Source: an uncultured Alphaproteobacteria bacterium
GTDB lineage: Bacteria > Pseudomonadota > Alphaproteobacteria > CAAGCB01 > CAG-977
DNA length: 38,120 nucleotides
NCBI GenBank assembly: GCA_944393745.1
Contig: CALYBD010000025.1
Coordinates: forward strand, 1 to 38,120
Direction: 5' to 3'
Shown one piece after another: positions 2,586-8,562 of the stretch. The translations under genes and the position numbers were made by a program. Below the pieces are notes generated by a model that saw nothing but the letters and a program-made list of their open reading frames with translations, was not told the DNA's origin and did no database searches. Numbering within the stretch: the stretch's first letter is position 1; every line of letters starts with the position of its first letter.

Positions 2586-4651
2586 AAGAATGGTTTTCCG
2601 CCAAAGAACTGGCTGAATTTGAGTTGCCGACACTTCCAAATACAGAACGCGGAGTTCAAACGAAAGCTTCCCGCGAAAACTGGCAATCGCGTCCCCGGTG
2701 CGGTCGCGGCGGCGGCAAAGAATACAACGTATCGAGTTTACCCGCCAAAGCCAAAGAAGAATTGGCGCGCCGTTCATTGTCAAGCGTTCCGGAACGTCGG
2801 TCAAAGGCTGTGATCGAACGTCCCGACGATGCCGATTTATCCGAAGCCAAAGCCTGGCAGCGTGAAACGGCTGAAGCGCGAGCGGCGGTTTTGGACGCGA
2901 TTGACAATCTAGCAGTAACGTGCGGGAAAAACAACGCGATTAAAGCCGTTTTAAACGGACTGAAAAACGGAACGTTGGAACCGTCTTTCATCGAACTGAT
3001 CCGAAAAGCAAACGCAAAGGCCGGCGAAACGGTCAAACTTTCCCGCGCCAGCTTGTTTAACTGGTACAAACTGCGTGAAACGGCGGGCTTAAAAGGGTTG
3101 ATGCCCACCCCTGCGAAAGATGAACAGATCGTTGCTCCCGAATGGTTTGAAGCGTTTGCCCGTTTGTATTTCAGACCGCAAAAACCGTCATTAAATTCCT
3201 GTATTGAAATTCTGCAGGAAAATATGCCCGCACTTGCCCCCAGTTACAGACAGGCAAAGTTTTATCTTGAAAAAATCGGAAAACTGCTGGCAAACAAAGG
3301 GCGCGTCGGGGCGCGTGAGGGTAAAGCTTTTCGGGCTTACGTTTCCCGTGACGTATCGCATTTGTGGCCGGGAGCGATTTATTGCGCAGACGGTCATACG
3401 TTTGATGCTGAAATCGCCCACCCGATCCACGGCAAGCCTTTCCGCCCAGAAGTCACGACAATTATTGACGTATATACCCGCAAAGCCGTCGGGTTCAGTC
3501 TGAACATCGTCGAATCGACCGCGTCCGTCATGGACAGCTTGATACACGCGGTGACGACCAACGGCGTTCCCGACGTGTTTTACGTTGACAACGGGAACGG
3601 CTTTAACAATACGACGGTCGATATGTTTTGCGCCCGTTTGGGCATCACGAAAAAGAACAGCATTGCCTACAATTCCCAAGCACGCGGCGTGATTGAACGC
3701 CTGCACCAGACGATTTGGGTCAAAGCGGCGAAAATGCTGCCGACCTATATGGGCAAGCCGATGGATCCGGAAGCCAAGCAAAAGGTTTTCCACATCAATC
3801 GGCGCGAGGTCAAACAAGACGGGAGAAGCCGCTTGTTGCCCGATTGGCAAGGCTTTGTCGCGTATTGCGAACGATGCTTTGCCGCCTATAACGATCACCC
3901 GCATTCTTTTTTGCCTATTATTATTGATTCTGAAACAGGCAAAAAACGTCACATGACGCCAAATGAAGCTTGGGAGGCGGGCAATCCTGAATTTCCCGAC
4001 TACCGCCCCGACGTTCTGACGCCGGCGGAAACAGATGATTTATCGCGTCCTTACGTTGTCCGCAAATGTTCGCGCTGTTTGGTCAGTCTGTTTAACAACG
4101 TGTACGGTTCGCATCTGCTGACGCATTATCACGACGAACAGGTTGCCGTCGGTTTCGACATTCATGATGCGTCAAAGGTTTGGGTGCGCGAATGGGACGG
4201 CAAGCTTCCGGGACGTTTGATTTGCGTCGCCCGTTTTGAAGAAAACAAGCGTGCCTTTATGCCCGTATCTTATGATGAAAAGAAGAAATTACAACGAGCA
4301 CAAGGGCGGCTCGCTCGTCTTGATGAACAGCAAAAAGAAGTCTTGGAAGAATTAGGACAAAGATATTTACCCGCCCCCGAAGCTGCGCCCGTGACGGCGG
4401 AGGAAGCCGCCAAAAACGAAGAGTTTTTAAAGGAATTTGAGGCTGAACAGAACGCTCAGCCCGTTGCCGATATTGACACGCCTGCGGCTCGGTTCCGCAA
4501 AGCCGTCGCTATCGGTCAACAAATCGAAAACGGGGAAAGCATTTCCGCCGAAGACCGCCGTTGGTTCACCGAATATTCCAAATCGCCCGAGTACATTCAG
4601 CGCATGGACTTTGCGCAGGATTTCGGCATGGAAGCGGCTCTGACGGCATAA
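2582..4651 (+). CDS. MuA-type transposase
   Basis: This 689-residue DDE recombinase binds the prophage ends and catalyses strand cleavage and transfer. Residues 1-75 form the MuA N-terminal HTH region (WFSAKELAE, RGGGKEY), followed by helical end-binding domains and an RNase H-like core. The catalytic triad is visible: D270 (YCADGHTF), D336 (FYVDNGNGFN) and E372 (RGVIERLHQTIW), a D-35-E spacing. A beta-barrel region follows (about 480-560) and a charged, alanine-rich C-terminal tail that in MuA contacts MuB and ClpX. The length is close to MuA (663 residues). Its probable sites are the ACAnTTATTTTTAGACT repeats at both ends. Confidence 0.95.
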   Translation: MKEWFSAKELAEFELPTLPNTERGVQTKASRENWQSRPRCGRGGGKEYNVSSLPAKAKEELARRSLSSVPERRSKAVIERPDDADLSEAKAWQRETAEARAAVLDAIDNLAVTCGKNNAIKAVLNGLKNGTLEPSFIELIRKANAKAGETVKLSRASLFNWYKLRETAGLKGLMPTPAKDEQIVAPEWFEAFARLYFRPQKPSLNSCIEILQENMPALAPSYRQAKFYLEKIGKLLANKGRVGAREGKAFRAYVSRDVSHLWPGAIYCADGHTFDAEIAHPIHGKPFRPEVTTIIDVYTRKAVGFSLNIVESTASVMDSLIHAVTTNGVPDVFYVDNGNGFNNTTVDMFCARLGITKKNSIAYNSQARGVIERLHQTIWVKAAKMLPTYMGKPMDPEAKQKVFHINRREVKQDGRSRLLPDWQGFVAYCERCFAAYNDHPHSFLPIIIDSETGKKRHMTPNEAWEAGNPEFPDYRPDVLTPAETDDLSRPYVVRKCSRCLVSLFNNVYGSHLLTHYHDEQVAVGFDIHDASKVWVREWDGKLPGRLICVARFEENKRAFMPVSYDEKKKLQRAQGRLARLDEQQKEVLEELGQRYLPAPEAAPVTAEEAAKNEEFLKEFEAEQNAQPVADIDTPAARFRKAVAIGQQIENGESISAEDRRWFTEYSKSPEYIQRMDFAQDFGMEAALTA

Positions 4652-4709: not shown

Positions 4710-5444
4710 ATGAATGAAACTGTCAAGAATACAATCGCCCCGCTGCGCAACGTGGCACTTTTGAACGAACTGCTATACCGCGTTAAAAACCGTGATTACG
4801 GTCTGCCCGGCATGGCGACCTTTTACGGTTTTTCCGGATACGGCAAAACGTTCGCGGCGATTTACGCGGCGAACAAGCACAAAGCCTATCACGTCCAAGT
4901 CAAAAGCGTTTGGACGCCGAAAAAGCTCTGCGCTTCGATTTTGGGAGAAATGGGCATTCAGCCCGCTTACACAATTCCCGACATGATGGATCAGATCGGC
5001 GAAGAACTCTCGCTTTCACAGCGTCCTTTAATCATAGATGAAGCGGATTTCTTGGTTCAAAAACGCATGATTGAAGTCGTTCGGGATATTTACGAAAGTT
5101 CGCAAGCCACAATCATTTTGATCGGCGAAGAAGCCATGCCGGTAAAGCTTCAAAAATGGGAACGCGTCCACGGGCGTATGCTTGACTGGGTGGCGGCACA
5201 GCCGGCGTCAATCGACGACGTTAAACATCTGGCTAAATTGTATGCGAACGGCGTTACGGTAGAACAGGACTTGTGCGAAAAAATCTTAAAAGAAAGCGCG
5301 GGTTCCGTGCGCCGTGTCTGCGTCAACCTTGACCGCGTGCGCGAATTTGCAACGACAAAAGGGTTAAAAACAGTCGGTTCGGCCGATTATCAGCGCGACT
5401 TCTTTACAGGCGTGCCTCCGATGGCGCGGAAAGCGGGGATATAA
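4710..5444 (+). CDS. MuB-type transposition activator ATPase
   Basis: The product is an AAA+ ATPase that binds target DNA and delivers it to the transposase, giving target choice and immunity. The Walker A motif is GFSGYGKT (about residues 40-47) and Walker B is PLIIDEADF (about 109-117), followed by a sensor stretch ATIILIGEE. The C-terminal domain (SAGSVRRVCVNLDRV) matches the usual end of MuB-like and TniB/IstB-type ATPases. I chose ATG 4710 because the AAGGAAG site is one base from the ATG at 4701; both are in frame. There is no long N-terminal HTH, as in the shorter B3-type MuB proteins. Confidence 0.9.
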   Translation: MNETVKNTIAPLRNVALLNELLYRVKNRDYGLPGMATFYGFSGYGKTFAAIYAANKHKAYHVQVKSVWTPKKLCASILGEMGIQPAYTIPDMMDQIGEELSLSQRPLIIDEADFLVQKRMIEVVRDIYESSQATIILIGEEAMPVKLQKWERVHGRMLDWVAAQPASIDDVKHLAKLYANGVTVEQDLCEKILKESAGSVRRVCVNLDRVREFATTKGLKTVGSADYQRDFFTGVPPMARKAGI

Positions 5445-7691: not shown

Positions 7692-7982
7692 ATGGTCGCG
7701 TTTAAAGTCCAATTCAGCACGATTAACGGTCGGATGCCGTATCCGATAATGCTTGATGAAAAAGGTAAAGCTTTAAAAAACACATGGAATATTGATGCGG
7801 TTTTGGGTGTTTCCGACCACCCGTGCACTGGAAACGTTGATATTGATTTCAAAGAACTGTGTCGGGATGTGGAAGCCGCCCGTGGCCGTTATCTGGTCGC
7901 GGTTAGCAACGGTGGAATTGTGACATATCAGCAAGCCATTAAGGAAATGAATGTCCATAAAATCAAGAAAGGAAAGAAATGA
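7692..7982 (+). CDS. Unknown early protein
   Basis: The 96-residue product starts at an ATG preceded by AGGAGG at 7681-7686, the clearest ribosome site in this part of the operon. It is rich in beta-type sequence (VAFKVQFSTINGRMPYPIM) with a basic tail. Its TGA overlaps the ATG of the next gene. No family is recognised. Confidence 0.65.
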   Translation: MVAFKVQFSTINGRMPYPIMLDEKGKALKNTWNIDAVLGVSDHPCTGNVDIDFKELCRDVEAARGRYLVAVSNGGIVTYQQAIKEMNVHKIKKGKK

Positions 7983-8134
7983 AAAAAGCGATTGATGCAT
8001 TGACGCTTCTTGCGATTTGCGGGTGGTTCGGCGTGATGGGGTATTCGGTTTATGTTGATCATGCCCACAAAGCGGCGGTGGACAAGGTCGTTCAGACCAC
8101 CGAGGAACTGCGCGCCAAAGCGGGACTGGACTGA
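7979..8134 (+). CDS. Small single-span membrane protein
   Basis: The 51-residue product has a hydrophobic stretch LTLLAICGWFGVMGYSVYV (about residues 8-26) after a short basic start, then a charged helical tail (AHKAAVDKVVQTTEELRAKA). It overlaps the upstream stop (ATGA). The layout suggests an inner-membrane peptide with a cytoplasmic or periplasmic helix; function unknown. Confidence 0.55.
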   Translation: MKKAIDALTLLAICGWFGVMGYSVYVDHAHKAAVDKVVQTTEELRAKAGLD

Positions 8135-8149
8135 ATTTTCTTTATGGGT

Positions 8150-8170
8150 GGGGCGGTTTTCTGCCGCCCC
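8150..8170 (+). other. GC-rich hairpin in the early operon
   Basis: GGGGCGG (8150-8156) pairs with CCGCCCC (8164-8170) around a 7-base loop. There is no T run after it, so it is not a clear intrinsic terminator; it may instead protect or set off the tRNA-like element that follows 40 bases later. Confidence 0.5.
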
Positions 8171-8210
8171 GGACACAAGGAAAATCAGTCCTGAAATACT
8201 AACAAACAAT

Positions 8211-8278
8211 AGCGGGATAGCTCAATCGGTAGAGCAAGGTGACGTCAAAGGTTGCGGGTTCGAGTCCCGCTCCCGCTT
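8211..8278 (+). tRNA. tRNA-like element lacking a normal anticodon arm
   Basis: The acceptor stem is perfect over 7 bp (AGCGGGA 8211-8217 with TCCCGCT 8271-8277). The D arm is normal (GCTC, loop AATCGGTA, GAGC), with T8, A9, A14 and G18-G19 in place. The T arm is perfect (GCGGG, loop TTCGAGT, CCCGC). The stretch between D and T arms is only 18 nt (8236-8253) instead of about 23, and its bases (AAGGTGACGTCAAAGGTT) cannot form a 5-bp anticodon stem; the core TGACGTCA is itself a palindrome. It is therefore either a decayed tRNA or a deliberate tRNA mimic. No CCA is encoded. It lies in the sense direction within the early transcript. Confidence 0.6.
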
Positions 8279-8307
8279 TCGATAGGAAAACGAAAGAAAA
8301 CAGAAAA

Positions 8308-8562
8308 ATGAAAAAAGAAGAGATTAAAAAACTGGCGGACAAAATGCTGAAAAAAGGACTGACCGCGCCGGACTGCGCGAAAATCGGGTGCTTCCGGACA
8401 TGCTTTTATCCGTTCGACGACTTTGAAACGGAAGACAGCTGGTACGACCGCGACAACGGCAGTTTCGACGACCGATTTTCCACCGTCTATGGCGGGTGGA
8501 GATGGCACTTTGAAACGGCGGAACAGCTGAAAGCCTTTTGTGAAGCTGTCGGACAAGCGTGA
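8308..8562 (+). CDS. Unknown small early protein
   Basis: The 84-residue product begins with a lysine-rich helix (MKKEEIKKLADKMLKKG) followed by an acidic, aromatic body with two cysteines in CAKIGCFRTCFYPF and a tryptophan-rich segment (YGGWRWHFETAEQLKAF). It starts 30 bases after the tRNA-like element. The family is unknown to me. Confidence 0.6.
   Translation: MKKEEIKKLADKMLKKGLTAPDCAKIGCFRTCFYPFDDFETEDSWYDRDNGSFDDRFSTVYGGWRWHFETAEQLKAFCEAVGQA

Follow-up and report, generated by a model that had tools for sequence, protein, structure and literature searches.

The window, which is the whole stretch of 38,120 nucleotides that we analyzed, is one complete contig of the 2.25-Mb genome of an alphaproteobacterial rumen MAG. 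It carries a Mu-like prophage with genes for MuA, MuB, DUF3164, GemA, and Mor. Named relatives of its DUF3164 protein (PF11363; 7139..7681, + strand), among them one at 92% identity from a rumen MAG of roe deer, place the host among the Alphaproteobacteria. Downstream of this early gene, on the coding strand of the early operon, a tRNA shell (8211..8278, +) lies between a 51-aa ORF (7979-8134) and an 84-aa ORF (8308..8562, +). The shell is contained in a 122-nt non-coding block (8186..8307, +) that ends directly at the 84-aa ORF. The block is preceded by a G+C hairpin (8150..8170, +) and, 3′ of the hairpin, by a ribosome-binding-site-like AAGGAAAAT (8177-8185, +). Both are kept in three sister prophages, L017 and L036 (same genus, DUF3164 at 92%) and L117 (DUF3164 at 74%). 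The sister sequences part from the window right after AAGGAAAAT, at position 8185, and continue directly with other small ORFs. Homology with L017 and L036 resumes near the ORF corresponding to 8308, which has homologous DNA in L017 at 80%. The block 8186-8307 is missing in all three sisters and was therefore inserted or exchanged in the phage of the window. The module of hairpin and AAGGAAAAT (window 8150-8185; L036 ~4554-4594; L117 ~4722-4759) precedes differing small ORFs, and from these alignments it is apparently a point of cargo exchange in the sister prophages.

The shell matches the full tRNA model of Rfam (RF00005) on the + strand with 49.9 bits (gathering threshold 29; E-value 6e−8 for the window), so it is not a chance resemblance. 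It is the sole Rfam match within the window. A preliminary description had placed a tRNA with perfect acceptor, D, and T arms at exactly these coordinates, and the Rfam score and the pairing of the sequence bear this out. The acceptor stem is formed by AGCGGGA (8211..8217) and TCCCGCT, with 7/7 pairs between 8211-8217 and 8271-8277. The D arm (8220..8235) is GCTC-AATCGGTA-GAGC, a 4-bp stem whose arm includes A14, A15, G18, G19, and A21. The T arm (8254..8270) is GCGGG-TTCGAGT-CCCGC with a 5-bp stem, as read from the sequence, the fold, and the Rfam alignment. The variable loop AGGTT (8249..8253) supplies U48 as the partner of A15. Both the sequence and the Rfam alignment confirm that all elbow-forming bases are kept (U8, A14, A15, G18, G19, A21, T54-T55-C56, A58, and the Levitt-type pair A15-U48). 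At the 3′ end (8271..8278) the acceptor strand is followed by a discriminator T and then TCGA. No CCA is encoded here; the host's other tRNA genes do encode it.

The center is where the shell departs from a tRNA. Only 17 nt (AGGTGACGTCAAAGGTT) separate A26 from base 49 in place of the usual 22, in agreement with the shortfall of 5 nt first noted. In the Rfam alignment, the 17-nt anticodon arm is replaced by a 12-nt unaligned insert, AGGTGACGTCAA (8237..8248, +). A 5-bp/7-nt anticodon arm with U33, an anticodon, and a variable loop is absent, and every register that would supply U33 sacrifices the variable loop or pairs of the T stem. ARAGORN makes zero tRNA calls in the window, the shell included. 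The statement that there is no usable anticodon arm needs a single qualification, which is that RNAfold places a weak 3-bp stem, GAC/GUU, in the center (probability 0.70-0.78), closing the 7-nt loop GUCAAAG at the expense of the variable loop. This raises the question of a working tRNA with an unusual fold, i.e., a stem of 3-5 bp, the loop GUCAAAG, the anticodon CAA, and no variable loop. The minimum free energy structure does have GAC/GUU closing a 7-nt loop with a U at the position of U33, and a 5-bp version (GUGAC/GUUGC) is just 2 kcal/mol worse. Such a fold consumes the variable loop and, at 5 bp, two T-stem pairs as well. Bacterial tRNA-Leu belongs to class II, the host already has a tRNA-Leu CAA, CCA is missing, and ARAGORN rejects the element. 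We regard a working tRNA as highly improbable; the shell is unable to decode. The fold of the shell as a whole is only moderately better than that of dinucleotide shuffles (z −2.0, with 8/200 shuffles equally good). The palindrome remarked on in the preliminary description, TGACGTCA at 8240-8247, is present. It carries little weight as a signal, since shuffling the 18-nt middle yields such a palindrome in 2.9% of cases (p ~0.03). Dimerization via this palindrome would be energetically possible.

We compared the shell with the genome's 39 other tRNA genes. The nearest resident is tRNA-Trp CCA (G000:C44), which shares 42 of the 51 shell bases. The nine differences do not look like decay. Those in the stems all keep or improve pairing, and in acceptor pairs 3-70 and 6-67 both partners are replaced. 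Because of this, the shell is not a decayed copy of tRNA-Trp, and a decayed copy of any resident tRNA is rejected at a best identity of 42/51 with compensated differences. The spread of damage expected of random decay is absent, with no stem position unpaired and no elbow base lost. An attachment-site origin was also rejected, because the phage is of the transposing Mu type and the shell is internal.

A single deletion does not account for the center. Any block of 4-5 nt was re-inserted into the middle, and the result was scored against the canonical anticodon arm. Re-insertion always left one or more additional violations (loss of U33), and random 17-mers behaved like the observed middle. In the control, 446/468 simulated 5-nt deletions in host tRNAs could be restored with zero violations. 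One clean deletion is not enough to turn a canonical arm into the observed center; at least one more violation, at U33, is needed. At least two changes thus fell in the center, with no visible change in the shell, which is suggestive without being decisive. The chief competing explanation is a recent tRNA pseudogene, which came from another host or phage, had its arm broken by a short deletion and at least one substitution, and is functionless, its stems being too young for damage. Zero damage in 51 shell bases counts against it, as does the need for at least two separate events in a 22-base middle, where we would put the chance of both landing at ~0.1 (22/73 squared). We also found no decoding relative. 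The shell is nonetheless a single copy without CCA, with no relatives found and absent from the sisters, at a mosaic exchange point of the early operon, and phage tRNA genes of odd length are common. We consider a recent pseudogene a serious possibility, if one with less than an even chance of being right.

The searches for relatives of the window copy were negative. Among 185 loci, nearly all around DUF3164, there was no other such shell and no intact tRNA at the same place. The only tRNA called in these loci is a tRNA-Gly in L099, on the opposite strand and ~3 kb off. A relative with an intact tRNA here, named beforehand as evidence against a mimic, was thus not found, yet no relative of the element was found either. 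IMG/VR contained neither the exact element nor a version in which the outer arms are kept and the 12 bases between them are free. A BLAST of the region against phages gave an ordinary tRNA-Ile of phage Ep020 as its sole match. With up to three mismatches allowed, the element finds only itself in 385 genomes of the class, and the whole element finds, besides itself, only chromosomal tRNAs in 12 genomes of the family. Matches in phage and plasmid records reach only ~72-79% across most of the length, and the annotated ones are mostly ordinary tRNAs. Used as a handle, the downstream ORF (8308-8562) yielded no further relatives. As the searched sets hold no homologue of the window copy, compensatory changes cannot be counted for it.

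Similar shells exist outside the window. A pattern that combines canonical D and T arms with a short center occurred in 1/289 genomes of the class, namely in the prophage described here; the normal-length pattern had ~50 occurrences in 76 genomes. In IMG/VR, the short-center pattern was found on 20 contigs, and the addition of a looser pattern brought the analyzed set to at least 89 shells in viral contigs. Among the 89 shells listed, 63 keep at least 6/7 acceptor pairs; in many, the anticodon stem ends in a 3-6-nt loop. The other 26 have fewer than six acceptor pairs, as the decay of pseudogenes would give. The length cut-off of the pattern produces a pile-up at its upper limit, and a pattern in which the D and T arms are fixed favors intact shells; therefore the counts are not frequencies. 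From these sequences, what appear to be codeless tRNA shells recur in unrelated viral contigs. ARAGORN returns '???' or nothing for many of them, and so they are easily missed. In the openly accessible literature, which lacks most subscription-journal papers and most preprints, no account of phage tRNA shells without an anticodon was found. Four further tRNA-like sequences lie beside tRNA genes, in L242 (10360-10411), L244 (2246-2297), L245 (1215-1264), and L253 (8518-8566). The first three keep D and T arms, ACTTCTATAGCTCAGTTGGTAGAGCG, and L253 is similar, AACTCTATAGCTCAATTGGTAGAGCG; the acceptor is unpaired in all four.

In two groups of phages the stems of such shells covary. The first group consists of Faecalibacterium phage FP_oengus (NC_047916.1 ~2935-3006; L377 326-397), L241 (1497-1568), and L246 (10374-10445), the flanks of which are ~76-92% identical. 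All 21/21 pairs of this tRNA-like RNA without an anticodon are intact, while the T-stem pair 50-64 changes from C-G to T-A and the Levitt pair A15-U48 becomes G15-C48. The stem of its non-decoding arm, 4 bp with a 6-nt loop, is kept, and the RNA is followed by a run of T. No RNA is annotated at this site in the FP_oengus record. The second group consists of L384 (~252-320, − strand), L392 (~373-440, − strand), and L252 (4062-4132). Here three acceptor pairs are altered on both sides and all are still paired around a non-decoding center, which is identical in L384 and L392. With three sequences per group, the covariation score was reached by 62/500 shuffles in the FP_oengus group and by 15/500 in the L384 group; slid controls scored near zero. 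On this comparison, selection can apparently act on codeless tRNA shells in some phages. By analogy, these groups may raise the likelihood of retention for the window copy, although indirectly.

The preliminary description had argued that selective retention of the stems hints at a mimic. This does not follow from the window copy alone, because the stems would also look perfect if the middle had recently undergone one or two changes; the argument gains indirect support from the phage shells elsewhere, two groups of which covary. Our best explanation is a retained non-decoding tRNA shell acquired by a Mu-like phage, for which we would allow a little less than an even chance. For the window copy, retention and recent pseudogene formation are about equally likely. 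Counted for retention are the perfect shell, including the elbow and A15-U48, a center beyond one clean deletion, and the covarying groups elsewhere. Counted against it are the lack of a homologue in the searched sets, the sisters that do without it, the discriminator T and the missing CCA, both poor features for a tRNA, the three-sequence basis of the covariation in each of the other groups, and the bias of the fixed-arm pattern toward intact shells.

A retained shell may have arisen as follows. A tRNA gene would have been acquired as a small insertion into the early operon of the phage, and its anticodon arm would then have been lost or replaced, the acceptor, D, and T arms, the variable loop, and the elbow contacts being kept. 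Promoters and terminators near the shell were not detected above chance. Co-transcription with the early genes is most likely, because neither a terminator nor a credible promoter of its own was found. The transcript would fold as a tRNA body, from which host RNase P and 3′-end enzymes could excise the RNA; the RNA would also depend on CCA addition. The acceptor/T domain, the part recognized by RNase P and the CCA-adding enzyme, is intact in the shell. Excision might cut the early transcript in two immediately 5′ of the ORF at 8308, so that the downstream ORF would start a new message. It might also, or instead, release a stable non-decoding tRNA-like RNA that would occupy proteins reading the acceptor or the elbow. 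Any benefit to the phage might thus lie in cis, by transcript splitting, or in trans, by occupying such factors.

A stricter alternative to a retained shell acting on other factors is an element that works in cis only, as a cut site for RNase P/RNase Z or a stabilizing structure that splits the early transcript, the released RNA being inert. The place between early genes on the coding strand would suit it, and RNase P needs little beyond the acceptor/T domain. Related DUF3164 loci carry a Hammerhead_II or C4 antisense RNA, which would have a comparable effect, but neither the position nor the kind of RNA is conserved (the hammerhead of L137 is upstream of DUF3164) and the sisters have neither. 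We think a purely cis-acting element improbable. Among the roles initially proposed for a retained shell, a substrate of RNase P or a decoy for factors that read the acceptor or elbow is possible. Least likely of these roles is that of a decoy for anticodon nucleases, because these enzymes read the anticodon part, which is what the shell is missing. A broader proposal is that phages repeatedly evolve and keep codeless shells, selected as trans decoys for acceptor- or elbow-reading host factors or defenses or as RNase P sites, and that the shell of the window belongs to them, its 12-nt center being extreme and palindromic. We hold this as a doubtful, though not far-fetched, proposal.

The recurring codeless phage shells outside the window, some of them covarying, are a more interesting result than the window copy. 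The purpose of phage tRNAs is an old open question that is usually argued via codons and anticodons. If non-decoding shells with covarying stems are real, part of the phage 'tRNA' repertoire would have a codon-independent job.

Compared with known systems, the shell shares with canonical bacterial tRNA (RF00005) and with the host tRNA-Trp CCA the acceptor, D, and T arms, the elbow bases, and the variable loop with A15-U48. It differs from them in having 12 nt for the 17-nt arm, no U33-anticodon in place, a discriminator T, and no CCA. The RNA of FP_oengus, L241, and L246 is, like that of the window, an isolated phage shell whose outer stems are perfect and whose anticodon arm is non-canonical. 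Its anticodon arm has a 4-bp stem and a 6-nt loop, and the element as a whole is conserved with covariation, whereas the window center has no stable stem and no relatives were found for it. Other Mu-like phages carry hammerheads of type II close to their DUF3164 gene (L014 6399-6480, L023 2790-2858, L137 2966-3038), and C4 antisense RNAs occur in alphaproteobacterial prophages bearing DUF3164 (7813-7896 in each of L045, L118, and L119; L050 5615-5696; L128 6480-6561). The idea of a conserved 'ribozyme slot' by DUF3164 is weakened, because hammerheads lie on either side of the gene and most loci have none. The C4 and hammerhead RNAs of Mu-like and P1-like phages are likewise structured RNAs of the early region, but they are unrelated to the shell in sequence and fold and their position is not conserved. 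They are released by cleavage, by RNase P for P1 C4 and by self-cleavage for the hammerheads. The stable RNAs of the phage T4 tRNA cluster (species 1 and 2, or RNA C and D) are made with tRNAs and are non-decoding; they are not tRNA shells.
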